A stretch of DNA of 64,000 nt from Desulfosporosinus nitroreducens (GTDB taxonomy: Bacteria; Bacillota; Desulfitobacteriia; Desulfitobacteriales; Desulfitobacteriaceae), in the NCBI RefSeq assembly GCF_023897015.1, contig NZ_JAMHFY010000008.1:124001-188000 (forward strand). The letters are read 5' to 3'. The notes below the pieces were generated by a model that did no database searches, had not been told where the DNA came from, and saw nothing but the letters and a program-made list of their open reading frames with translations. Shown piece after piece: positions 30,707-64,000 of this stretch. How positions within the stretch are numbered: the stretch's first letter is position 1; the number at the start of each line of letters is the position of its first letter. Both the position numbers and the translations under genes were made by a program.

Positions 30707-30810
30707 TTATAATCCTCCCTTATTCTGGATTTCACTGGTCAAGCCTTGGTTTGTCCTTCTTATCATATGCACCTTGTCCGGCAGGGGTTACCCTTGTCCA
30801 GGGTATTTAT

Positions 30811-30875
30811 GACAAAATAATGGCAAAACCGTAAAGTGCCTATGCACTTTATGGTCTTGCCATTATTTTCTCACA
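30811..30875. terminator. Long hairpin upstream of the DUF3102 gene
   Basis: AAAATAATGGCAAAACC and the matching GGTCTTGCCATTATTTT, with TAAAGTGC/GCACTTTA inside. It stands between the divergent DUF1659 and DUF3102 genes and recurs in repeat copy 2. Confidence 0.7.
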
Positions 30876-30985
30876 AGTGAGGGCTTGAACACATAGGCTA
30901 TGAGTAAGGTTGTTCAAATCCATCTTCTCTTATGGGAGCTTTTCCTCCGGAAAAGCTTATGAATAAGCAGAGGAGCTCGAAGATC

Positions 30986-31798
30986 ATGGCGAAGGGAATA
31001 AGCGAGCGGACGCCGCAGATTATCGCGGCCGAAATTAACAGTATTAAAGATCAGACCGGCAGAATGCTGCTTTACAGCTCCGTCGAGATCGGACGGCGCC
31101 TGACGGAGGCCAAATCCATGGTCAATCATGGAGAATGGGGGAAGTGGCTGGAGAACTCGGTGAGTTACTCTCAAAGCACGGCCAATAAACTCATGCGCCT
31201 CTTTGAAGAGTATGAGGCCAAGCTCACCGCCGGACAGGACAGTTCAAATTCGGAATCGATTCCGAATTTGAGCTACACTCAGGCGATTATCCTTCTGGGA
31301 ATTCCCGAGGAGGAACGGGAGTCCTTTATGGCAGAGCATGATGTGGCGAGTATGTCGACCCGGGAGCTTAAACAGGCAGTCCAGGAAAGGGACCAGGCCC
31401 TTAACGAAAAAGCGGAGCTTCAAAATACTCTGACCGCCAACCAGGGTGCAGTCACGGAAATAACCTATGAGCGGGATGAGTTGAGAAAACAGGCCTCAGG
31501 TCTCCAAGCGGCCATCCACACGAAAGAGTTAACCATCAAGACTTTACAGGAGAAACTGGACTCAGCCAAGGAGGGCGAGGCTTCAGCTGGGAAAATCGCC
31601 GCCCTGGAAAAGGATATCAAAGCCACCCGGATCAAGTTGTCCGCCAACAAAGTCAGCTTTCTCTACAACAATATCGCCAAAGAATTCGAAGAGTTGCTGA
31701 AGGAACTGACTAAGCTGGCTCCGGCGGACCCGGAAGCTCATGAAAAGTATAAGAGTGAGGTTAGCGGTTTTATCGGGAAAATAGCGGAGAGACTGTAA
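30986..31798 (+). CDS. DUF3102 family protein, copy 1
   Basis: A 270-residue protein. Residues 5-90 are the DUF3102 domain (SERTPQIIAAEINSIKDQTG, EIGRRLTEAKSMVNHGEWGK, SYSQSTANKLMRLFEEYEAK); a long coiled coil follows (LKQAVQERDQALNEKAELQN onward), then a helical C-terminus. The domain is found in phage, plasmid and other mobile-element proteins and looks DNA-associated. ATG 30986 is chosen because GAGGAG lies 9 bases upstream. A near-identical copy is at 62475-63290. Confidence 0.85.
   Translation: MAKGISERTPQIIAAEINSIKDQTGRMLLYSSVEIGRRLTEAKSMVNHGEWGKWLENSVSYSQSTANKLMRLFEEYEAKLTAGQDSSNSESIPNLSYTQAIILLGIPEEERESFMAEHDVASMSTRELKQAVQERDQALNEKAELQNTLTANQGAVTEITYERDELRKQASGLQAAIHTKELTIKTLQEKLDSAKEGEASAGKIAALEKDIKATRIKLSANKVSFLYNNIAKEFEELLKELTKLAPADPEAHEKYKSEVSGFIGKIAERL
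31244..31271. repeat. 28-bp perfect palindrome, copy 2 (inside DUF3102 gene)
   Basis: Same sequence as 30072-30099; it encodes SNSESIPNL. A perfect 28-bp palindrome within a gene is unexpected by chance. Confidence 0.85.
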
Positions 31799-32012
31799 GG
31801 CAGCGGGCCCAGGTGCAGGCAAGAGGATGTCTCACAAGAGCATCCTCTTTTTGATATCTTCCTCCATGTTCGGCCGAGTACTTGAGAAATCACTCTTATT
31901 GATTATTTCGATCTAGTTTTCACTAAGGGAGCATAGCGTCTCTGCCTTTTATTTCAATACAGAACATTGTTAAACATGGGCGTTATTAGTTGACTTTGTC
32001 AATGCACAGTAC

Positions 32013-44782: not shown

Positions 44783-45220
44783 CTATTTTTTCTCCGTTAG
44801 TCCCTCCAGAAACAAAGCTAATTTGTATTTAAGGTTTTCCTTGAAAGGGATTTGTGAACGGCTAGTTATAGCTGATTGGATCAGGCCCATGAACATCTCA
44901 GTCACTATTTCAATTGGAATAGTGACTCTAAATTCTCCATTTTCCTGCCCTTCCTGAATAACATTTACTAAAAGGTCTTTAAACTCCGGACCATGTGGCG
45001 GTTGTATTGGTGATAGTGACTGGTTACGATATAATTTAAATAATTGTTGATTATCTTCAAATATCTTACCTAAAATCAATAAAATTTGAGAGATTTTTTG
45101 TGGAGGATTAATCGATGATTGGTTCAGTTCTTCTAGCGATCTTTTAGCCTCACTGATTTTTTGTGCCAAGGCATATTTGAGGATATCCTCTTTAGATTGA
45201 AAATAGTTATAAAAAGTACC
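44783..45220 (-). pseudogene. TetR-family regulator lacking its DNA-binding helix-turn-helix
   Basis: The frame holds the end of the TetR HTH (GTFYNYFQSKEDILKYALAQ) and the whole ligand domain (SEAKRSLEELNQSSINPPQK onward). Upstream of GTFYNYF it meets an in-frame stop at once, and the first half of the HTH is missing. An internal ATG at 45169 could still give a 128-residue protein with no DNA-binding domain. Confidence 0.8.
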
Positions 45221-45489: not shown

Positions 45490-46005
45490 GTGAAAAAGAT
45501 TTCAACGGTTGCAATTTCTTTAGCCTTAGGACTAACTCTCCTTTTAACAGGCTGTGGATCGAGTATCACAGCGAACAAGACCAGTGCGGAGAATAAACCT
45601 GCAGAATCTGCAGCAGCGAGCCAAACTGCTCAGCCCGCTCCGAAAGCCATTAAGGATTGGAAATACTATAGCGCAGATCAACTGAAAGAGGCAATCGAGA
45701 AGAAATCCCCCCTTCAAATCGTGGATATCCAAGTTGAGGCTGAATATGATGCACATCATATCAAAGGGGTTATCCCAACCTATGCTTATCCAGTAAAAAC
45801 AGAGGAAGAGAAAGCGAAGCTCGCTAAAATTCTTCCCCAACTTAAAGCGTCTAAAGATCCCATCGTAATTGTTTGCCCTGCAGGTAAAGGGGGAGCCGAG
45901 CGTACCTATCAGTATCTTTATGATCAAGGAATTGATGAATCGCGTTTGTTCACCCTCGAGAAAGGCCAAAGCGGCTGGCCTTATAGTGAGTTACTTGAGA
46001 AGTAA
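45490..46005 (+). CDS. Rhodanese-domain lipoprotein
   Basis: A 171-residue exported protein: signal peptide with lipobox LLLTGC (Cys at 22), a Ser/Ala/Pro linker, and one rhodanese domain (LQIVDIQVEAEYDAHHIKGV) with active-site loop VCPAGKGGAERTYQYL. It would transfer or bind sulfane sulfur on the outer face of the membrane. GTG start behind AGGAGGAAAAT. First gene before the flippase-glycosyltransferase operon. Confidence 0.88.
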   Translation: MKKISTVAISLALGLTLLLTGCGSSITANKTSAENKPAESAAASQTAQPAPKAIKDWKYYSADQLKEAIEKKSPLQIVDIQVEAEYDAHHIKGVIPTYAYPVKTEEEKAKLAKILPQLKASKDPIVIVCPAGKGGAERTYQYLYDQGIDESRLFTLEKGQSGWPYSELLEK

Positions 46006-46065
46006 GTCGATTCGAACCCTTCCAGCCGTTAATGGAGGGGTTCTTTATTTAGGGGGACAAGAAGT

Positions 46066-47082
46066 ATGGCAAGCACTTTAAGAGAACAAAGCAATTTCAA
46101 AAGATTTTTACTCCCCTTAAAAATCCTTGCCTCCATACTTATGCTTTCCTGGATGTTCAGTACCATTGAGTGGCAGCAAATCACTCAAATTCTCCTTCGC
46201 GTTAACGGGATATGGATGGCAATGGCTTTAGGATGGGTTGTTATTTCTGTGGGAGTAAGTGCCTATAAATGGCAGCTCATCTTAAGGGCCTCGCAACTTC
46301 ATGTTCCTCTAAGGGTTTTATGGAAAACTTATTGGGCAGGACTTTTTTTAAATAACTTCCTCCCTTCGAGTATTGGTGGGGATGGACTTAGAATTTATTG
46401 GGTGGGCAAAGTCACCGGGGAAATGGCTGGCTCAACGACTTCCGTAGTTGTCGAGCGTGTTTTAGCGACAATCGGTCTTTGTCTTACAGCAATCCTTGCT
46501 ATTTTGTTGACTGAAGTTCAAATACCTTATCTTTTAGCATTTTTTGGGGCGGTCATGTTTGTGGGGATTCTTATTCTATCATTTTTTCTTTTTCCTCATT
46601 TTACTGGATGGCTACAAAAGCGGTTGGGTTTCTTGCCGAAGGCTCAAAGTTTTTTAGTAGGAATAATATCTCATGGAATGCGCTTAAGAAACCAGCCGAG
46701 TTTAATGTTCTATGCGTTAATCGGATCTGTGCTCTTCCAGATGTGTGTTGTGATGGTGAATTGGTGTATATTCAAAGCCCTTTCGGTAACTGACTTGAAT
46801 CCTATCCAGGCCGCTGTAATCATACCGGCAACCTCTGTGGCCGCGATGCTCCCCATAGGAATCAATGGCTATGGCGTACGGGAGGGGGCTTATATCGCGT
46901 TATTTGCTCCTATGGGAATTTCCGGTCCTATTGCGCTCACCGCTTCAATTCTATTTGCACTACTTGTCAGCTTCTCCAGTCTTTGGGGAGGATGGATATG
47001 GATAAAGGAAGGACGACAAGATGTTGGAGAAAAAAGAGTTCCTCACGACGATAGAGAGGCAAGCCGCCCATTATTTCAGTAA
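46066..47082 (+). CDS. Flippase-like membrane protein (UPF0104/lysylphosphatidylglycerol-synthase TM family)
   Basis: A 338-residue protein with 7-8 membrane helices. Characteristic parts: WKTYWAGLFLNNFLPSSIGG, DGLRIYWVGKVTG, SVVVERVLATIGL and LPIGINGYGVREGAYIALF. Family members translocate lipid-linked sugars or modify lipids. The last 60 bp overlap the next gene. It is the first of six tightly packed genes. Confidence 0.85.
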   Translation: MASTLREQSNFKRFLLPLKILASILMLSWMFSTIEWQQITQILLRVNGIWMAMALGWVVISVGVSAYKWQLILRASQLHVPLRVLWKTYWAGLFLNNFLPSSIGGDGLRIYWVGKVTGEMAGSTTSVVVERVLATIGLCLTAILAILLTEVQIPYLLAFFGAVMFVGILILSFFLFPHFTGWLQKRLGFLPKAQSFLVGIISHGMRLRNQPSLMFYALIGSVLFQMCVVMVNWCIFKALSVTDLNPIQAAVIIPATSVAAMLPIGINGYGVREGAYIALFAPMGISGPIALTASILFALLVSFSSLWGGWIWIKEGRQDVGEKRVPHDDREASRPLFQ

Positions 47083-47488
47083 AGGTTTTAATTGCTGTCA
47101 GAGTATATTGCTTGCAGCCAATGATATTTGGGAGTTGAATCTTGATCAAGCGATTATAGCTTCAGGACGGTTCTTTCAACATGGAATGGGGTGCGGGTCT
47201 ACCTGTGGCGCTTTAATTGGTGCCCATATGGTATTAGGTATCCTGGATAACCGATATGAAACAAAACTCTCAAATAAATACGCCCGCAAGCTTTCCGAAG
47301 AATTTAATCAGACATTTGGCACAACTCAGTGTTCGGAGTTGCGTAAAAAGCAAAGCATTATGGATAAAATAGGGTATAAAGGATGTAAACGAATAACCTT
47401 TATGACGGCAGGAGTTTTCTATGAGTTTTGGGAGAGTACCAATGGAAACCAAACCCCGAGTGTCGGTCATTATTCCGACGTTAAATGA
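47021..47488 (+). CDS. C_GCAxxG_C_C family redox protein
   Basis: A 155-residue protein of the C_GCAxxG_C_C family: NCCQSILLAANDIWE, GRFFQHGMGCGSTCGALIGA and TTQCSELRKK supply the conserved cysteines. The function of the family is unknown; it often accompanies radical-SAM and selenium/sulfur genes. It overlaps the flippase gene by 62 bp. Confidence 0.8.
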   Translation: MLEKKEFLTTIERQAAHYFSKGFNCCQSILLAANDIWELNLDQAIIASGRFFQHGMGCGSTCGALIGAHMVLGILDNRYETKLSNKYARKLSEEFNQTFGTTQCSELRKKQSIMDKIGYKGCKRITFMTAGVFYEFWESTNGNQTPSVGHYSDVK

Positions 47489-48137
47489 AGAGGCTGTGAT
47501 TGAAAATACCCTTCGGACTTTACATGAAAACAAAGAACGGGTCACCTTAGAAGTCATTATCGTCGATGGGGGGAGCACTGACTCAACGTGCCAGATCGCC
47601 TCGCGATATGCAGATCAAGTGATTATTATGTCTCCAGGACGTGGTGGACAATTGAATCGGGGGGCGGAAAATTCATGCGGAGAGATTTTATGGTTCTTAC
47701 ATGCTGATTCGCAGTTGGAGAAGGATTATGTTCTCGATATTGTAAAAACGACGGAACAAGGCATAGGCGGAGGTTGTTTTGAAATTACCTTTGATTCCAA
47801 AGGTTTTATCTATCAGTGTATTGCCTGGAGTTCGAATCAAAGGGCGAAATGGTTTAAAAGCTTTTATGGAGACCAGGGAATATTCGTGAAGAGAGAGGTT
47901 TTTCAGAAACTGGGTGGTTTTCGTCCCATTCCTCTGATGGAGGATCTGGAGTTCTCTCGTCGACTTAAGCGAGCGACCAAAGTACAAGTGATTCAGAGGC
48001 CTCTTCAAACCAGCTCAAGGCGTTTTCGAAAAGGAATCCTGCGAACACTTCTTGTAATGCAGTTATTAAAACTAGGGTTTTATCTTCAAGTGAATCCAAA
48101 GTTTCTTTCAAGGGTGTATGGTTTAGGAAGAGGATAA
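47442..48137 (+). CDS. TIGR04283-type glycosyltransferase family 2
   Basis: A 231-residue GT-A transferase: RVSVIIPTLNEEAVIENTLR, DGGSTDSTCQIA, APGRGGQLNRGAE-type SPGRGGQLNRGAENSCGEIL, WFLHADSQLEKDYV, FYGDQGIFVKREVFQKLGGF. Members were first noted beside radical-SAM/selenodomain genes and are annotated as arsenosugar-pathway-like, but their substrate is generally unknown. Start is ATG 47442 (GGAGAGTACC) or 47421. The C-terminal 60 residues are duplicated at 63.4 kb. Confidence 0.88.
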   Translation: METKPRVSVIIPTLNEEAVIENTLRTLHENKERVTLEVIIVDGGSTDSTCQIASRYADQVIIMSPGRGGQLNRGAENSCGEILWFLHADSQLEKDYVLDIVKTTEQGIGGGCFEITFDSKGFIYQCIAWSSNQRAKWFKSFYGDQGIFVKREVFQKLGGFRPIPLMEDLEFSRRLKRATKVQVIQRPLQTSSRRFRKGILRTLLVMQLLKLGFYLQVNPKFLSRVYGLGRG

Positions 48138-48155
48138 GAGTGAAAGGAAGCAAAT

Positions 48156-48818
48156 ATGTATGGCACAGTGAATTCTCAAGCTCTCATTCTTATGACCCGA
48201 GTTCCGGTTCCAGGGAAGACGAAAACGAGGCTTATGCCTCATCTTTCTGCGGAGGAATGCGCAGGTTTTCACGAGGCTTGTTTAAAGGATATCATTAAAG
48301 TTCAAAGAGAACTCAAGAAGCCTGCGAATATCTTTTATTCGGAAAAACTCACCGAGAAGTTTATGTCGATGTTCCCGAAAGAGAGCCAATTTATTTCTCA
48401 GGAAGGGGATAATCTAGGGGAGAGGATGAGTCAAGCTTTCCGAATATCGCTCCAAGACTATAAGTTCACCCTTATGGTTGGTTCGGATTTACCTCATTTA
48501 ACTGTGCGGATACTCCAGAGTGCCTTTGAAGCACTTGAACAACACGATGTCGTTCTGGGACCGGCTCTTGATGGAGGATATTATCTTATCGGGTTAAAGC
48601 AATACATATCGGACTTATTTACAGGGATTAATTGGGGGAGTTCTGAAGTTTTTAGGCAGACTATAGAAAGAGTCCATTCCCTTGGCTTAAGCTATCGCCT
48701 TCTTAAGAAGATGCAAGACTTAGATACCATTGAAGATCTTCGGGTCTTCATGACAAATCCTGCTAACAAAGACCATCAAGCCTGGAAATTCATTGATCAA
48801 TTGGGAGGAGTAAAGTAG
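48156..48818 (+). CDS. TIGR04282-type glycosyltransferase/nucleotidyltransferase-like protein
   Basis: A 220-residue protein starting LILMTRVPVPGKTKTRLMPH, with LMVGSDLPHLTVRILQSAFE, DVVLGPALDGGYYLIGL and INWGSSEVFRQTIERV. This is the partner family of TIGR04283. GAAAGGAAGCAAAT precedes the ATG. A frameshifted duplicate occupies the right end of the window. Confidence 0.88.
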   Translation: MYGTVNSQALILMTRVPVPGKTKTRLMPHLSAEECAGFHEACLKDIIKVQRELKKPANIFYSEKLTEKFMSMFPKESQFISQEGDNLGERMSQAFRISLQDYKFTLMVGSDLPHLTVRILQSAFEALEQHDVVLGPALDGGYYLIGLKQYISDLFTGINWGSSEVFRQTIERVHSLGLSYRLLKKMQDLDTIEDLRVFMTNPANKDHQAWKFIDQLGGVK

Positions 48819-49829
48819 ATGCAGAGATTAGAAGCAAACCAGACCGAGGCCTTTAGAAGTCTCGATAAGGCTTTAAGAGGAGAAATTCTGGATAAAGAAG
48901 AGATCGAAGAGCTTTTCCGAGTTCCAAGCAAAAGTGAAGCCTTTTATGCGATTCAATACGCCTCTCGTAAAATCAGTGAATCAGTATCCCGAGGTAAAGC
49001 AGAAATTCACGGTCAGGTTGGAATCAATATCGGACCTTGCCCGAAGAACTGCCAGTTTTGTTCCTTTGCGGCGTGCAATAAAGTGTTCCCTGAGCCCTCT
49101 GTTCTCCCAACGGCTGAGATTATCAGCCGATGTCTTGATTTAGAAGAAGCGGGTGCAAATGCTATCTACTTAATGACCACTGCAAACTTTAGTTTTGAAC
49201 GGTTTATTGAGATTGCGCACGAGGTTAGGAATAAGCTTCAAAAGGAAAGCGTACTCGTAGCCAATATCGGGGACTTTTCCTACGAGCAAGCCTTAGAGCT
49301 TAAACAGGTCGGTATAAATGGTGTTTATCACGCTCTACGCTTAGGAGAAGGGAATACGACAGCCATCAATCCGAAGAGACGGCTAGAGAGCTTTGCAGCA
49401 GCGAAAGAAGCAGGACTTATCCTAGGAAATTGTGTGGAACCTGTAGGACCTGAACACACGGTGGAAGAACTCGTCGAGAAAACCCTCATCGCTCGAGAAG
49501 CGAACCCGGTATTCAGTGGAGCAATGCGGCGTATTACGATTCCCACCACGCCCTTGAGTCAGTATGGAATGCTTAGTGAAGGGAAAATGGCCCATATTCT
49601 AGCCGTGGTCCGCTTAGCGATGGGACACCATATTCTCGGAAATTGTACTCATGAACCCAATGTCCACGGGGCGGTAGCTGGCGCCAATCTTTTATGGGCT
49701 GAAGTGGGGTCGAATCCTCGTGATGTGGCGGGTGAAACTCACCGTGGGATTAGTGTTAAGCGGTGTAGAGAAATTTATTGGGAAGCAGATTGGGAAGTTC
49801 TTTCAGGACCTTCACAGTTCTTCCGGTAG
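48819..49829 (+). CDS. Radical SAM enzyme, BioB-like
   Basis: A 336-residue radical SAM protein. The [4Fe-4S] motif CPKNCQFCSFAACN (CxxxCxxC) is near residue 71; a TIM-barrel-like core follows (NAIYLMTTANFSFERFIEIA, VLVANIGDFSYEQALELKQV, RRITIPTTPLSQYGMLSEGK). It is closest in look to biotin-synthase-related enzymes. It starts one base after the previous stop. The chemistry is unknown; the neighbours suggest modification of a sugar or lipid. Confidence 0.85.
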   Translation: MQRLEANQTEAFRSLDKALRGEILDKEEIEELFRVPSKSEAFYAIQYASRKISESVSRGKAEIHGQVGINIGPCPKNCQFCSFAACNKVFPEPSVLPTAEIISRCLDLEEAGANAIYLMTTANFSFERFIEIAHEVRNKLQKESVLVANIGDFSYEQALELKQVGINGVYHALRLGEGNTTAINPKRRLESFAAAKEAGLILGNCVEPVGPEHTVEELVEKTLIAREANPVFSGAMRRITIPTTPLSQYGMLSEGKMAHILAVVRLAMGHHILGNCTHEPNVHGAVAGANLLWAEVGSNPRDVAGETHRGISVKRCREIYWEADWEVLSGPSQFFR

Positions 49830-49856
49830 TTAGGGGTATAAGAGAGGTGAGCTTTT

Positions 49857-50555
49857 GTGCCGTTTTCAAAACGGAAAATTATCAGCGGAATGGTTACCTT
49901 GTGCTTAATTGGGCTAGTCTTACTTTATCTTCTCCTACCAGGGTTTAAACATGAGGTCAATACTGCGGTTCGTTTAATCGCTCAGGCAGATATCCAGGGG
50001 CTAAGATTGTATGTTTCGAGCTTTGGTATTTTAGCGCCCTTGGTTTCTATGGCACTCATGGTTCTTCAGGCCTTGGCCTCTCCTTTGCCAGCCTTCGTCA
50101 TTACATTTGCAAACTCCTGGATATTTGGATGGTTCTGGGGTGCTGTTTATTCTTGGACGGGGGCAATGATTGGCGCTTCAGTCTGTTATTTTATAGCCAA
50201 GGCTTATGGCCGCCCGTTGGTTGAAAAGATGGTTGGGACAAAAGGGCTTGAAATGACCGATCGTTTCTTCGAAACCTATGGAAAGTATTCTATTGTTATT
50301 GCTCGACTTATCCCCGTAGTGCCCTTCGATATTATTTCTTATGCGGCAGGCCTTACACGCATCAGTTTTTGGAGCTTCTTCTGGGCAACGGGGGTGGGCC
50401 AACTTCCAGCAACCCTTATCTACTCCTGGCTCGGGGAAAATATGACGTTATCGGCGAAGTATGCTCTCTGGGCGGTTAGCGGTTTCATGGTTCTCATTTT
50501 TTTAAGTTTAGGGTTTAAGAAAAGGCTCCAGGCAAAGCTGGGGCAGGATGGATAA
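49857..50555 (+). CDS. TVP38/TMEM64 (DedA-like) membrane protein
   Basis: A 232-residue protein with 5-6 membrane helices: LVLLYLLLPGFKHEVNTAVR, ALASPLPAFVITFANSWIFG, AMIGASVCYFIAKAYGRP, ARLIPVVPFDIISYAAGLTR, TGVGQLPATLIYSWLGE. The VTT domain moves lipids across membranes. GTG start (PFSKRKIISG) after AGAGGTGAGC. Last gene of the operon. Confidence 0.9.
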   Translation: MPFSKRKIISGMVTLCLIGLVLLYLLLPGFKHEVNTAVRLIAQADIQGLRLYVSSFGILAPLVSMALMVLQALASPLPAFVITFANSWIFGWFWGAVYSWTGAMIGASVCYFIAKAYGRPLVEKMVGTKGLEMTDRFFETYGKYSIVIARLIPVVPFDIISYAAGLTRISFWSFFWATGVGQLPATLIYSWLGENMTLSAKYALWAVSGFMVLIFLSLGFKKRLQAKLGQDG

Positions 50556-50796
50556 CTATTCGCAAATGTATTTGCATAAATATATTGTGATAATATATTT
50601 ACATGAGCAGGTATCGATGATAACATTTAACTTGGATATATTCATTTAAAATAGTCTCTGACATTTTCAAAAATATGGAGGTGGAAAATTATAATTTCAT
50701 CCGTTGACCCCACAGTAAGATTCAATAGGGTTGGTGAGCGGCGAAATTAACTATAAGAAGGTTTGCCCAATTATATTTTGTGAGGAGAAAAAATTA

Positions 50797-51801
50797 ATGA
50801 AAAAGAAATTACTTGCTATTCTTATTTGTATTGCAGTGGTAGCTACATTTGCAACAGGCTGCAGTTCTACTGCAACACCGGAAAAGCCTGCGGCAGAAAC
50901 TCCGACCGTTAAGGCAGTCGAAAAGACAAAGGTATTTGTATCCGCAGATTGGGTAAAAAGTGTCATTGAGGGTCAACAACCAGAGTCAAAAGATTATGTA
51001 ATTATTGAGGCCGCTTGGGGCCAGGTTAGCGAGGATAAAGCATACACAGAAGCCCATATTCCAGGAGCGATCCATCTAAATACAGATGAAATCGAAGAAG
51101 AAAAGAATTGGGATATCAGAACAGGCGCGGAAATTACACAGGTAATGAAAAATTATGGTATAACCAAAGATACTAATGTAATCATTTATGGTGCAGACTC
51201 AGGTGCAGCGAGAGTTGCATTCGTATGTATTTGGGCTGGTGTTGAAAATGTAAAAGTCCTCGATGGTGGATTGAACACTTGGAAAAATGCAGGGTATGCA
51301 ACTAAGGACGGTATAGAAACTGCTAAAGCAACTTCAAAAGATTTTGGTGTAACAATACCTGCACATCCGGACTATGTCTTATCGTCTGACGAAGTAAAAG
51401 ATAAGCTGGCAAAAGATAACAACTTCAGATTGGTAAGTATTCGGAGTTTAGATGAATTTACGGGTAAGAAAAGCGGATATAGTTATATTAAAAGAGCAGG
51501 TGAACCCAAAGGAGCAGTTTGGGGTCATGATGAAACTGATTACCTCAATGAAGATGGAACGTTTATCAACTTTGATAAGGCGGTAGCCATGTGGACTGAA
51601 CAGGGTATAACAAAAGATAATGAAATTGCATTTTACTGTGGAACTGGTTGGAGAGCAACTATCCCTTGGCTAATGGCCTATGAAAATGGTTGGAAAAATG
51701 TAAAATTGTATGATGATGGATGGTTTGTGTGGCAGATGGATGAAAAAAATCCCGTACAGGCTATCACTCCTGAAGAAGCAGCAGCAAAATACAAAAAATA
51801 A
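50797..51801 (+). CDS. Double-rhodanese sulfurtransferase lipoprotein
   Basis: A 334-residue exported protein: lipobox signal KKKLLAILICIAVVATFATGC, then two rhodanese domains. The first has the inactive loop IIYGADSGAARVAFVC (no Cys at the catalytic position); the second has CGTGWRATIPW with the active Cys near residue 289. This architecture matches thiosulfate/mercaptopyruvate sulfurtransferases. ATG 50797 follows GAGGAGAAAAAATTA; the upstream frame is not needed. Own terminator. Confidence 0.9.
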   Translation: MKKKLLAILICIAVVATFATGCSSTATPEKPAAETPTVKAVEKTKVFVSADWVKSVIEGQQPESKDYVIIEAAWGQVSEDKAYTEAHIPGAIHLNTDEIEEEKNWDIRTGAEITQVMKNYGITKDTNVIIYGADSGAARVAFVCIWAGVENVKVLDGGLNTWKNAGYATKDGIETAKATSKDFGVTIPAHPDYVLSSDEVKDKLAKDNNFRLVSIRSLDEFTGKKSGYSYIKRAGEPKGAVWGHDETDYLNEDGTFINFDKAVAMWTEQGITKDNEIAFYCGTGWRATIPWLMAYENGWKNVKLYDDGWFVWQMDEKNPVQAITPEEAAAKYKK

Positions 51802-53510: not shown

Positions 53511-54410
53511 TTACCTTACAAGGTTTAAACCAAGTCTTTGGGCAAATGTTAAAGCTTCCTTATAATCTGATTTAGACAGTCTTTTAGATATCTCGAAATA
53601 TTTGGACGCTTGATGGGCCGGGCGATACTGATCCATTAAGTTGACTACGCAATCGGGCGACAATTCGTGCTTGATGAATTTCAAGATTTCTTTACTATCT
53701 TCAAGTCCCCCTGGCATCATTAAATGCCTAATAATCAGTCCTCGGTAAGCTATGCCATCGTTGTTCACCTTCAGTCCGCCTACCTGACGGTCCATTTCCT
53801 TTAAAGCTAACTTCACCTTTTCCGGATAATCCTCCACATTGGAATAGCGGCTTCCCCTTTCAGCGAGATGATACTTAAAGTCGGGCATGTAGATGTCAAC
53901 CACACCCTCTAACAAAGCCAACGTTTCAAGATGTTCATAGCCGCCGCAATTATAAACCAGCGGGAGGCTTAATCCTTTTTGAGCTGCCATAAAAACAGCG
54001 TCCAGGATGTTCGGCACAAAATGGGTGGGTGTGACAAGATTGATATTGTGACAGCGGTAATGATTCTGAAGTAGGAGCATAATTTCCGCTAAAGACTCGT
54101 TCGTAGTTAATTGCCCTTCGCCGTTAAAACTAAGCTCGCAGTTCTGGCAAAAAACACAACGCATATTGCAATATGCAAAAAATATTGTGCCTGATCCATT
54201 GTGTCCAACTAAAGGCGGCTCCTCCCCGTAGTGCGGACCATAGCTAGCGATCACAGCCATCTCGGGAGCCTGGCAAAAACCATGCTTCTCGAGCCGGTTG
54301 ACTCCGCATTGGTGAGGACAAAGATTACACTTTATTAGTTGCTTTTTGGCCTTGAGGACTCTCTGTTCCAGTTGATGGTTTTTCAAGAGTTTGACGTAAC
54401 TTGGCTCCAT
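53511..54410 (-). CDS. PflX-type radical SAM protein
   Basis: A 299-residue protein of the PflX group (COG1313-like): CNLCPHQCGVNRLEKHGFCQ at the N-terminus and the radical SAM motif YCNMRCVFCQNCELSF (CxxxCxxC). LVTPTHFVPNILDAVFMAAQ and VDIYMPDFKYHLAERGSRYS follow. Related to pyruvate formate-lyase activating enzymes but with no glycyl-radical partner nearby. Its start and upstream region are duplicated at 58.4 kb. Confidence 0.88.
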   Translation of the reverse strand: MEPSYVKLLKNHQLEQRVLKAKKQLIKCNLCPHQCGVNRLEKHGFCQAPEMAVIASYGPHYGEEPPLVGHNGSGTIFFAYCNMRCVFCQNCELSFNGEGQLTTNESLAEIMLLLQNHYRCHNINLVTPTHFVPNILDAVFMAAQKGLSLPLVYNCGGYEHLETLALLEGVVDIYMPDFKYHLAERGSRYSNVEDYPEKVKLALKEMDRQVGGLKVNNDGIAYRGLIIRHLMMPGGLEDSKEILKFIKHELSPDCVVNLMDQYRPAHQASKYFEISKRLSKSDYKEALTFAQRLGLNLVR

Positions 54411-54485
54411 TTTTCACCTTTTCCAAATAGATTTTAAGCATTGTGTTAACGGAAAAGAAAGATCGATATTGAAGGCAGCTCGGCG

Positions 54486-58221: not shown

Positions 58222-58360
58222 ATGTCGAAAACACATTACAAGGAGGAGATCTTAACTGCCAGACTTTATTTCTGTTGGGTGTAAATAGTGCCCCGAAAGC
58301 TTCTGGGACATAAACTTTCGTTCCTGATTGAAAAAGCAAAAAAGGGTATAATATCATGAC

Positions 58361-58500
58361 AAAGATTACACCTTATCAGATGTTCTTTGGCCTTAAGCAC
58401 TCTTTGTTCCAGTAGATGGTTTTTCAAGAGTTTAACATATCCTGGCTCCATTTTTCACCTTTTCGAATATTTATTAAGCGTAATGTTAACAGATAAAAAA
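58361..58500 (-). pseudogene. Duplicated 5' end of the PflX gene
   Basis: The frame MEPGYVKLLKNHLLEQRVLK, AKEHLIRCNLC aligns with MEPSYVKLLKNHQLEQRVLK, AKKQLIKCNLC at 54.4 kb, and the DNA match runs on through the upstream region (to 54455). After CNLC the sequence diverges and stops soon. Identity is roughly 85% by eye, so the duplication is not recent. Confidence 0.85.
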
Positions 58501-58508
58501 CATCATTT

Positions 58509-62030: not shown

Positions 62031-62201
62031 ATGAACATTATTAAAGATATTATCCCCACTGGGGTTTCGGGCAGACCCGCGAAGGCAATGACCGCGAAAT
62101 ATATTACCGTACACAACACAGGAAATACTGGTGTGGGCGCGAACGCGCTCGCACACGCGGGTTTATTGAAGCGCGGAATTAGGCACAACAGGATGGCATA
62201 G
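62031..62201 (+). pseudogene. N-acetylmuramoyl-L-alanine amidase N-terminal fragment
   Basis: ATG 62031 follows AAAGGGGGGTTGCGA; the product MNIIKDIIPTGVSGRPAKAM, TAKYITVHNTGNTGVGANAL, AHAGLL is the start of a CwlA/XlyA-type amidase_2 domain with the zinc-ligand His in VHNTGN. It breaks off at the border of the 1.1-kb repeat. Confidence 0.75.
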
Positions 62202-62474
62202 TCCTCCCTTATTCTGAATTTCACTGGTCAAGCCTTGGTTTGTCCTTCTTATCATATGCACCTTGTCCGGCAGGGGTTACCCTTGTCTAGGGTATTTAGA
62301 CAAAATAATGGCAAAACCGTAAAGTGCCTATGCGCTTTATGGTCTTGCCATTATTTTGTCACAAGTGAGGGCTTGAACACATAGGCTATGAGTAAGGTTG
62401 TTCAAATCCATCTTCTTCTTATGGGAGCTTTTCTTCCGGAAAAGCTTATGAATAAGCAGAGGAGCTCGAAAATC

Positions 62475-63290
62475 ATGATGAAGGGAATAACCGAGCGGAC
62501 GCCGCAGATTATCGCGGCCGAAATTAACAGTATTAAAGATCAGACCGGCAGAATGCTGCTTTACAGCTCCGTCGAGATCGGACGGCGCCTGACGGAGGCC
62601 AAATCCATGGTCAATCATGGGGAATGGGGAAAGTGGCTGGAGAACTCGGTGAGTTACTCCCAAAGCACGGCCAATAAACTCATGCGCCTCTTTGAAGAGT
62701 ATGGGGCCAAGCTCGCCGCCGGCCACCAGGACAGTTCAAATTCGGAATCGATTCCGAATTTGAGCTACACACAGGCGATTATCCTTCTGGGAATTTCCGA
62801 GGAGGAACGGGAGTCCTTTACGGCAGAGCATGATGTGGCGAGTATGTCGACCCGGGAGCTTAAACAGGCAGTCCAAGAAAGGGACCAGGCCCTTAACGAA
62901 AAAGCGGAGCTTCAAAATGCTCTGACCGTCAACCAGGGTGCAGTCACGGAAATAACCTCTGAGCGTGATGGGTTGAGAAAACAGGCCTCAGGTCTCCAAG
63001 CGGCCATCCACACTAAAGAGTTAACCATCAAGACGTTACAAGAGAAATTGAACTCAGCCAAGGAGGGCGAGGCTTCAGCTGCGAAAATCGCCGCCCTGGA
63101 AAAGGATATCAAAGCCACCCGGATCAAGTTGTCCGCCAACAAAGTCAGCTTTCTCTACAACAATATAGCCAAAGAATTCGAAGAGTTGCTGAAGGAACTG
63201 ACTAAGCTGGCTCCGGCGGACCCGGAAGCTCATGAAAAGTATAAGAGTGAGGTTAGCGGGCTGATCGGGAAAATAGCGGAGAGACTGTAA
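62475..63290 (+). CDS. DUF3102 family protein, copy 2
   Basis: A 271-residue near-duplicate of the protein at 30986-31798, intact, with a handful of substitutions (MMKGITERT start; YGAKLAAGHQDSSN; TSERDGLRKQ). The reading frame is preserved across the 3-bp insertion, which suggests selection on the protein or a recent copy event. Same ribosome site AGAGGAGC. Function unknown. Confidence 0.82.
   Translation: MMKGITERTPQIIAAEINSIKDQTGRMLLYSSVEIGRRLTEAKSMVNHGEWGKWLENSVSYSQSTANKLMRLFEEYGAKLAAGHQDSSNSESIPNLSYTQAIILLGISEEERESFTAEHDVASMSTRELKQAVQERDQALNEKAELQNALTVNQGAVTEITSERDGLRKQASGLQAAIHTKELTIKTLQEKLNSAKEGEASAAKIAALEKDIKATRIKLSANKVSFLYNNIAKEFEELLKELTKLAPADPEAHEKYKSEVSGLIGKIAERL
62736..62763. repeat. 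28-bp perfect palindrome, copy 3
   Basis: Same sequence as 30072-30099 and 31244-31271. Confidence 0.85.
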
Positions 63291-63374
63291 GGCAGCGGGC
63301 CCAGGTGCATGAGGGTTTGCGATAGTTGAAGGGACTGCTGCAAAACGAAGAAGTTCGCAGAGCAGCAGCCTCTT

Positions 63375-63578
63375 GTGATGAAGGATCTTGAGTTCTCTCG
63401 TCGACTTAAGCGAGCGACCAAAGTACAAATGGTTCAGAGGCCTCTTCAAACCAGCTCAAGGCGTTTTCGAAAAGGAATCATTCGAATACTTCTGCTTATG
63501 CAGTTATTAAAACTAGAGTTTTATCTTCGAGTTAATCCAAAGTTTCTTTCAAAGGGTTTAAGAAGAGGATATGGGTGA
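63375..63578 (+). pseudogene. Truncated TIGR04283 glycosyltransferase copy (last ~60 codons)
   Basis: The frame DLEFSRRLKRATKVQMVQRP, LQTSSRRFRKGIIRILLLMQ, LLKLEFYLRVNPKFLSKGLR copies the end of the gene at 47442. The catalytic N-terminal domain is missing. Confidence 0.85.
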
Positions 63579-63590
63579 AAGGAAGCAAAT

Positions 63591-64000
63591 ATGGATGGCA
63601 CAGTGAATTCTCAAGCACTCATTCTTATGACCCGAGTTCCGGTTCCAGGGAAGACGAAAACGAGGCTTATGCCTCATCTTTCTGCGGAGTTTGAAGGATA
63701 TCATTAAAGTTCAAAGAGAACTCAAGAAGCCCGCGAATATCTTTTATTCGGAAAAACTCACCGAGAAGTTTATGTCGATGTTCCCGAAAGAGAGCCAATT
63801 TATTTCTCAGGAAGGGGATAATCTAGGGGAGAGGACGAGTCAAGCTTTCCGAATATCGCTCCAAGACTATAAGTTCACAGTTATGGTTGGTTCGGATTTA
63901 CCTCATTTAACTGTGCGGATACTCCAGAGTGCCTTTGAAGCACTTGAACAACACGATGTCGTTCTGGGACCGGCTCATGATGGAGGATATTATCTTATCG
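63591..64000 (+). pseudogene. Frameshifted TIGR04282 glycosyltransferase copy (runs off the window)
   Basis: Starts MDGTVNSQALILMTRVPVPG, KTKTRLMPHLSAE like the gene at 48156. A 26-bp deletion after TCTGCGGAG shifts the frame at once into a stop. Later substitutions (GPAHDGG for GPALDGG) show that it is no longer under selection. Confidence 0.85.

Follow-up and report, generated by a model that had tools for sequence, protein, structure and literature searches.

The DNA analysed here is a 64,000-nucleotide stretch of Desulfosporosinus nitroreducens (contig NZ_JAMHFY010000008.1, positions 124,001 to 188,000; hereafter the window), which belongs to contig C88; the genome measures 5.46 Mb. Positions 45,490 to 51,801 of the window hold an operon in which a pair of proteins of the TIGR04283 and TIGR04282 families is accompanied by a radical S-adenosylmethionine (SAM) enzyme of BioB/HydE fold, with a rhodanese lipoprotein on either side. 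As judged from comparison with related loci, most of these families form a constant core that recurs in many genomes, and it is well supported that the radical enzyme beside this core is exchanged, ArsS of arsenosugar biosynthesis being one of the enzymes found in that position.

Gene content of the locus

We re-read the open reading frames (ORFs) and scanned them against NCBIfam and Pfam. The eight genes named in the first-pass annotation, a model's reading of the letters alone, were all found where it had placed them, with the families it had given:

45490–46005 (+): Rhd1, single-domain rhodanese lipoprotein (PF00581, 41.2 bits), with an LLTGC lipobox and Cys129 at the catalytic position
46014–46043 (+): terminator-like hairpin with an 11-pair stem in the gap between Rhd1 and the flippase gene, from a consensus scan; weak, the scan total being near the shuffled expectation
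46066–47082 (+): flippase-like integral membrane protein, LPG_synthase_TM (PF03706, 125.9 bits; TIGR00374, 69.9 bits, cut-off 43.2)
47021–47488 (+): C-GCAxxG-C-C redox-type protein (PF09719, 70.3 bits; TIGR01909, 51.7 bits, cut-off 47.4)
47421–48137 (+): GT2 glycosyltransferase of the TIGR04283 family (246.9 bits, cut-off 182)
48156–48818 (+): CofC-like/DUF2064 nucleotidyltransferase-type protein of the TIGR04282 family (205.5 bits, cut-off 134; PF09837, 110 bits)
48819–49829 (+): BioB/HydE-fold radical SAM enzyme (PF04055), with CxxxCxxC at C74/C78/C81
49857–50555 (+): VTT (TVP38/DedA-type) membrane protein (PF09335, 106.2 bits; UptA family, 48.3 bits, below cut-off)
50666–50695 (+): promoter-like site 5' of Rhd2, TTCAAA-18-TATAAT, with a 10/12 consensus match; weak, again with a scan total near the shuffled expectation
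50797–51801 (+): Rhd2, double-domain rhodanese lipoprotein (PF00581, 88.2 bits in two stretches), with a CGTGWRA loop in the second domain

NCBIfam cut-offs are exceeded by four of the proteins, namely the flippase-like, C-GCAxxG-C-C, TIGR04283 and TIGR04282 ones, whereas for the rhodaneses, the VTT protein and the radical SAM enzyme this holds for Pfam only. Against the CofC model TIGR03552, the TIGR04282-family protein scores 46.9 bits, below the cut-off, and the flippase-like and VTT proteins resemble the MprF and UptA models, likewise with scores below cut-off. The TIGR04283 match over cut-off is the single one in the window genome. In the C-GCAxxG-C-C protein, the columns of Cys25, 62, 104 and 122 are cysteine in all 17 aligned sequences.

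The six genes between the rhodaneses had been described as overlapping. By their longest ORFs only two pairs overlap (46066–47082 with 47021–47488, and 47021–47488 with 47421–48137), and the remaining genes adjoin with gaps of 0–27 nt; the radical SAM gene begins at the base directly 3' of the TIGR04282 stop codon. The start of Rhd2 is most likely ATG 50797 rather than TTG 50731, as suggested by a Shine-Dalgarno-like site and a lipoprotein signal that follows immediately. The VTT gene and Rhd2 are separated by 241 nt. This gap with its promoter-like site, together with the hairpin after Rhd1, suggests that the two rhodaneses may be transcribed apart from the operon.

Conservation of the gene set

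Two surveys were conducted. In the first, anchored on the radical SAM enzyme, an alignment scan of named genome contigs yielded 463 relatives, the best 80 of which were kept; 79 loci were scored, L132 being left out for want of a full ORF, and a gene was counted as a neighbour within 7.5 kb. In the second, anchored on TIGR04283 to avoid bias, 348 genomes of the phylum were scanned, and 21 were over the cut-off; 19 loci were fetched, joined to those of G000 and G032, and searched for 7.5 kb on each side (G336, below cut-off, was excluded). Some contigs end near the genes, so all neighbour counts are lowered. Relatedness among genomes and loci is uncorrected in the Fisher tests and in the rhodanese probability given below.

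TIGR04283 lies near the BioB-like radical SAM gene in 33 of the 79 loci. At these paired loci the neighbours include TIGR04282 (27), the VTT protein (27), a rhodanese (19), the flippase (17) and the C-GCAxxG-C-C protein (17), as compared with 4, 1, 7, 0 and 1, respectively, at the other 46 (Fisher test, 1e-4 for the rhodanese and 3e-14 for the VTT protein). The paired loci come from at least eight phyla, including Bacillota, Nitrospirota, Thermodesulfobacteriota, Omnitrophota, Hydrogenedentota, Auribacterota, Planctomycetota and Myxococcota. All of the gene families are kept in Desulfosporosinus BRH_c37 and D. metallidurans (L047 and L048), with Rhd1 moved behind the radical SAM gene; Rhd1 of these two loci is 61–65% identical to that of the window, versus 38–39% for the glycosyltransferase, and across the Desulfosporosinus loci Rhd1 identity is 61–71%. 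The constant core, as defined by these sequence comparisons, therefore consists of TIGR04282 and TIGR04283 with the flippase, the C-GCAxxG-C-C protein, the VTT protein and exported rhodaneses.

Could these genes be chance neighbours that form no functional unit? Rhodaneses are common, with 12 genes (14 matches) in the window genome, so that a random 15-kb stretch of it has one in about 3% of cases. A rhodanese occurs, however, in 12 of the 21 TIGR04283 loci, which has a probability of 1e-5 even at the 7/46 rate of the unpaired loci, and gene order and spacing recur in distant genomes. We rejected chance as very improbable. The first-pass annotation had named a lack of rhodaneses beside the operon in other genomes as a point that would count against its proposal; they are conserved there in both surveys.

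The flanking arrangement itself is another matter. Rhodaneses stand on both sides of the operon in the window, as had been noted, but elsewhere this order is clear only in the near-identical G018/L063; in other loci one rhodanese has moved or is missing, and a conserved two-sided bracketing was dropped as a candidate feature.

Alternative radical enzymes beside a shared core

In the TIGR04283-anchored survey, the BioB-like enzyme was found near the glycosyltransferase in 5 of the 21 loci (G000, G170, G394, G191 and G189), ArsS in another 5 (G032, G360, G166, G197 and G288) and a third radical SAM type in 4 (G265, G204, G217 and G138, the last with its copy in two pieces). The remaining 7 (G233, G144, G190, G101, G105, G082 and G337) have none of the three types nearby; in G082, ArsS is present on a different contig from TIGR04283. 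The BioB-like enzyme and ArsS occurred together within 7.5 kb of TIGR04283 in none of the 21 loci. Two proteins of the third type score 78–80 bits with TIGR04167 (ArsS) and 91–95 bits with NF049973, all below cut-off. The flippase and the C-GCAxxG-C-C protein are both nearby in 4/5 BioB-like, 1/5 ArsS and 4/4 third-type loci, and in 0/7 of those with none.

The same pattern was seen among the 60 nearest relatives, 10 of which have TIGR04283 over the cut-off: it lies beside the BioB-like enzyme in 6, ArsS in 2 (G032 and G054), the third type in 1 (G010) and none of them in 1 (G055). The clearest case is G054 (L146), which has the flippase, C-GCAxxG-C-C protein, glycosyltransferase, TIGR04282, VTT protein and double rhodanese as in the window, but an ArsS of 425.7 bits (cut-off 300) as its radical enzyme. 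In a glycosyltransferase tree, one clade with a Shimodaira–Hasegawa-like approximate likelihood ratio test (SH-aLRT) support of 95 comprises 20 rows, from 14 BioB-like, 3 ArsS and 3 third-type loci, with the types intermixed: the ArsS locus L162 stands by BioB-like loci of Syntrophomonas, and the BioB-like locus L157 by the third-type locus L144. We take this to mean that a single core has received different radical enzymes more than once.

We also compared whole genomes, with E <= 1e-60 as the threshold for the BioB-like family. Among the 348 genomes, TIGR04283 shares 6 with the BioB-like family (15 genomes; 0.9 expected; Fisher test, 8e-5) and 6 with ArsS (8 genomes; 0.5 expected; 6e-7). ArsS is over the cut-off in 3 of the 33 genomes whose BioB-like gene is near TIGR04283. 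TIGR04283 is over the cut-off elsewhere in 25 of the 38 genomes in which the BioB-like gene lacks it as a neighbour, and in 2 of the 7 with a BioB-like gene beside ArsS. G032 has both enzymes: one ArsS gene adjoins the glycosyltransferase, and a separate contig carries the BioB-like genes, close to further ArsS genes. A 20-kb locus of this genome (L045; G032:C2:297000-316999) holds four BioB-like paralogues, ArsS, SsuABC/SaoX-like transporters, CobW-like GTPases and a 5'-deoxyadenosine-deaminase-like amidohydrolase.

Characterization of the BioB-like radical SAM enzyme

The enzyme belongs to the radical SAM superfamily by its cluster motif in a TIM-barrel core, as seen in the alignment, the structural model and the fold matches. 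CxxxCxxC (C74/C78/C81) is invariant in 85 aligned sequences, in which position 205 is Cys in 80, 276 is Cys in 77 and 278 is His in 83; three members beside ArsS (L110, L113 and L123) have Ser at 205 and Gly at 276. The predicted structure (predicted local distance difference test score, 94.3; predicted template modelling score, 0.92) has as its nearest solved folds BioB (8vdw; Z 34.1, root-mean-square deviation 2.2 over 307 residues), HydE (5few; Z 33.2, 2.6 over 314) and PylB (Z 31.9, 2.9 over 315). BioB and HydE are tied as the nearest folds of the model, and a shared fold shows no function. The sequence scores 48.5 bits with the BioB equivalog TIGR00433 (cut-off 225) and 25.7 bits with the HydE equivalog TIGR03956 (cut-off 254.6), and is far below the cut-off of the PylB model.

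In comparison with BioB, the enzyme shares the fold and the CxxxCxxC motif, and differs in its gene neighbours, in its TIGR00433 score and at the auxiliary cluster. The ligands of that cluster, which we take to be C97, C128, C188 and R260 in E. coli numbering, align with Y117, V147, G203 and G274 in a profile alignment to E. coli BioB (1r30; counted by hand); only C205 and C276 lie near two of the aligned positions. The likeness to HydE is likewise one of fold, with the TIGR03956 score far under the cut-off; the title of 5few, which names S-adenosyl-L-cysteine as the final product, provides a precedent for adenosyl transfer to sulfur.

These results bear on whether the enzyme inserts sulfur at an unactivated carbon, as biotin synthase does, giving a thiosugar lipid for which the rhodaneses supply or place the sulfur. 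BioB is among the nearest solved folds, rhodaneses are conserved nearby, and a YedF-type (TusA/DsrE) gene occurs in the Nitrospirota loci L067 and L089. The four cluster ligands, however, are not at the aligned positions, and the rhodaneses are lipoproteins, placed outside the membrane, and are also found with ArsS loci. We regard such an insertion as distinctly unlikely, and dropped it as the leading idea since the ligands fail to align.

Rhodaneses and predicted selenocysteine

In the TIGR04283 loci, a rhodanese is nearby in 4/5 with the BioB-like enzyme, 3/5 with ArsS, 2/4 with the third type and 3/7 with none. Rhodaneses thus recur with every type of radical enzyme, ArsS included, indicating that they are part of the core and not of one radical enzyme; for the same reason, they alone do not indicate that the BioB-like enzyme handles sulfur. 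The first-pass suggestion of sulfur is not supported by them, nor by the BioB sulfur-donor ligands, which are not conserved.

The column of Rhd1 Cys129 is cysteine in 9/9 aligned relatives. In one cluster of 13 double rhodaneses, the catalytic cysteine is present in 5, and in 8 the ORF ends exactly there. In those 8, and in L157 and L162, a UGA codon takes the position of the catalytic cysteine (Y-U-T-M-G-I/M-R-S-G); exactly 41 further residues, all in a conserved stretch, are encoded behind it before the frame closes with UAG or UAA. We had considered these cysteine-less forms as dead enzymes and rejected this on account of the position of the UGA and the conserved residues behind it. The double rhodanese is hence a predicted selenoprotein in 10 related loci (L079, L081, L088, L100, L105, L106, L107, L109, L157 and L162), nine of which have the BioB-like enzyme and one (L162) ArsS. 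A stem-loop 3' of the UGA (-6.1 kcal/mol) has one compensatory pair only, and no Rfam match for a selenocysteine insertion sequence was obtained in L107 and L162, so that the selenocysteine assignment rests on the reading frame and not on RNA structure. Ordinary ORF calling removes 42 residues from these proteins; therefore, such genes are likely to be mis-annotated.

In the window, neither rhodanese has an in-frame UGA at the catalytic position; both Rhd1 and Rhd2 carry cysteine. The selenium that the first-pass annotation had offered as a possible element accordingly finds a counterpart in the relatives and not in the window itself. Rhd2, with its CGTGWRA loop, belongs to a different subgroup from the UGA forms, which is also represented in L043, L144, L155 and L157. 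The list of prokaryotic selenoproteins in PMC13188914 includes UxxG rhodaneses, TIGR04167 (ArsS), C-GCAxxG-C-C proteins and YeeE/YedE. By motif, the double rhodaneses of the related loci resemble the UxxG selenocysteine rhodaneses of that list, with UGA at the catalytic Cys (U-T-M-G), whereas Rhd1 and Rhd2 of the window differ in using cysteine.

We found no description of a BioB-like radical SAM enzyme with TIGR04283 in the open-licence literature. The nearest published hint is the name of an NCBIfam family, NF045521 rhoda_near_glyco (cut-off 145): Rhd2 scores 25.8 bits with it, Rhd1 gives no match, and seven double rhodaneses of the relatives score 50–57 bits.

Relation to ArsS-type arsenosugar biosynthesis

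In arsenosugar biosynthesis, ArsS is characterised, and the glycosyltransferase pair owes its name to family membership and gene neighbourhood; in NCBIfam, TIGR04283 and TIGR04282 are both called arsenosugar biosynthesis glycosyltransferases. The window resembles the ArsS neighbourhood in having both families over the cut-off, and the flippase, C-GCAxxG-C-C, VTT and double-rhodanese partners occur in ArsS-bearing relatives too. The difference is that the BioB/HydE-fold enzyme stands in the place of ArsS. What is new here is this core with such an enzyme in place of ArsS, a combination that may work like the arsenosugar system.

In the window genome, the best ArsS (TIGR04167) match is 43.8 bits (cut-off 300), with none at E <= 1e-40, and the best ArsM (NF008823) match is 104.5 bits (cut-off 263), which leaves divergent variants below the cut-off possible. 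Since neither is over its cut-off, the known route to arsenosugars is unlikely to operate in this genome, which applies also to the first-pass suggestion of arsenic.

A related possibility is that the locus is an arsenosugar or arsenolipid pathway all the same, in which the BioB-like enzyme, as a non-orthologous ArsS, attaches an adenosyl group to an arsenic species, and an arsenosugar lipid is then built and exported by the core. The NCBIfam names favor this, as do the same core families beside ArsS in L145, L146, L162, L164 and others, and the BioB-like family near ArsS in 6 of the 79 loci and in L045. On the other side is the lack of ArsS or ArsM over the cut-off in the window genome, in a search confined to these two ars genes. 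We consider this pathway unlikely.

PMC12159101, citing the ArsS paper, states that a radical SAM enzyme adenosylates arsenic when arsenosugars are made, and PMC10456119 carries a proposal of an algal arsenolipid pathway via a nucleosidase. In our loci, a nucleoside hydrolase (PF01156, inosine-uridine type; 125.6 and 131.5 bits) lies near the pair in L154 and L158, which lack a radical SAM gene, and APH-type kinases (PF01636) occur in L151, L154 and L155. These genes fit a route in which a nucleoside is converted to a sugar phosphate and this in turn to a nucleotide sugar. Among the TIGR04283/TIGR04282 loci without a radical SAM gene, a periplasmic-binding-protein ABC transporter is found in L143, L151, L155 and L158, and a Sulf_transp (YeeE-type) gene in L151.

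A putative membrane-glycolipid export module

We propose that the locus is a membrane-glycolipid export module whose core stays constant while its radical SAM enzyme can be exchanged, and in which the BioB-like enzyme fills the slot of ArsS. The radical enzyme would place a 5'-deoxyadenosyl radical onto a substrate atom to give a modified 5'-deoxynucleoside, the atom being arsenic in the case of ArsS and sulfur in that of HydE, and adenine would then be lost. TIGR04282 would activate the resulting 5-modified ribose phosphate to a nucleotide sugar, and TIGR04283 would transfer the modified sugar to a lipid, either phosphatidylglycerol or polyprenyl phosphate. Movement of this lipid and of its carrier through the membrane would fall to the flippase and the VTT protein, and the surface rhodaneses would work on the outer face via persulfide or, in the relatives, selenolate chemistry. 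The product of the window would be an ArsS-type ribosyl lipid with another head group, perhaps made by 5'-deoxyadenosyl transfer to another heteroatom. Deoxyadenosyl transfer to a heteroatom, if it is what these radical enzymes have in common, would explain why they replace one another. We judge this proposal to be evenly balanced: there is good support for the modular exchange, but not for the chemistry. A glycolipid made inside and moved to the outer face had been suggested from the first; the genes form one module whose content fits this, and the modification of the lipid by radical chemistry stays a conjecture.

Several points weigh against the proposal. Its chemical steps are drawn from protein families and by analogy, and the window operon has neither a nucleosidase nor a kinase. 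TIGR04283 over the cut-off is absent from 9 of the 15 phylum genomes with the BioB-like family, and some members of the family adjoin SsuABC-type transporters or ArsS; the family therefore has wider roles. There is also a clade in which ArsS is found close to the BioB-like enzyme (6/79 loci, plus L045), so that a role complementary to ArsS fits as well as that of a substitute. The 7 of 21 TIGR04283 loci without the three radical SAM types imply that the core needs none next door. In addition, the hidden Markov models used for family scoring derive from loci of the same scan, and the glycosyltransferase tree (53 sequences) comes from a quick search with SH-aLRT supports only, with 14 of its 50 inner branches starred.

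Alternatively, the operon might serve surface polysaccharides or lipid-carrier recycling, with the radical SAM enzyme tailoring a common sugar or a lipid tail and no hetero-element involved. The flippase-like and VTT families are used for lysyl-phosphatidylglycerol and undecaprenyl phosphate, the matches to the MprF and UptA models being below cut-off, and the GT2 fold is generic. That this core is also accompanied by ArsS, by a selenoprotein rhodanese and by C-GCAxxG-C-C proteins points instead to chalcogen or metalloid chemistry, and we think a polysaccharide or recycling role improbable.

The export module could also be one instance of a general platform, in many phyla, that leads from a radical-made nucleoside to a surface glycolipid. 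Its core (nucleotidyltransferase, glycosyltransferase, flippase and carrier transporter) would accept 5'-deoxyadenosyl adducts from interchangeable radical SAM enzymes, with ArsS as the arsenic version and the BioB/HydE-fold enzyme as a sulfur or selenium version, and outside the membrane the head group would be completed or read by rhodaneses of the seleno- or thio- type. We offer this broader idea tentatively, and would sooner doubt it than adopt it. That several radical SAM types serve the same core suggests a general core function. The association links a BioB/HydE-fold family that has been uncharacterised with a probable class of substrates and leads to a testable prediction of element-bearing lipids, which, if true, would constitute a class of membrane lipids with a hetero-element that has yet to be described, in anaerobes and groundwater bacteria.

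Decayed copies and other observations

A decayed partial second copy of the operon lies at 63376–64149 (+; window numbering, running past the window end at 64000), with the end of the glycosyltransferase gene and the start of the TIGR04282 gene. It is 91.6% identical in DNA to 47935–48737 over 806 columns and continues with a 90-bp piece matching 51695–51784, the tail of Rhd2; the radical SAM gene, the VTT gene and most of Rhd2 are lost. A segment with an ORF of about 300 residues is present in two copies, at 30709–31817 and 62198–63309 (96.4% identical), and 67 bp separate the end of the second from the decayed operon copy, with which it may have been moved or duplicated.

Two relatives also carry damaged loci. 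In the closest relative (L043, 5235–5559; G018), the VTT gene is in rearranged pieces, and its neighbours are 91–96% identical. In L051 (9304–10306; G002), a partial radical SAM gene (residues 100–332) adjoins a partial flippase gene, and the glycosyltransferase, TIGR04282 and C-GCAxxG-C-C genes are gone; this looks like a deletion that fused the ends, with Rhd1 (71%) and the VTT gene kept.

Divergent from the operon, an ORF at 44783–45169 (-) of TetR regulator type has a weak TetR_C match only, seems to lack the N-terminal DNA-binding part and is probably broken. A 148-bp repeat at 54317–54464 and 58358–58504 (83% identical) covers the start of a second radical SAM gene (53511–54410, -). Outside the window, at 114610–118679 of contig C88 (L149), a locus in which Rhd1 has a match at 28% identity, a further rhodanese lipoprotein lies directly 5' of an apparent molybdopterin-oxidoreductase operon (unscanned).

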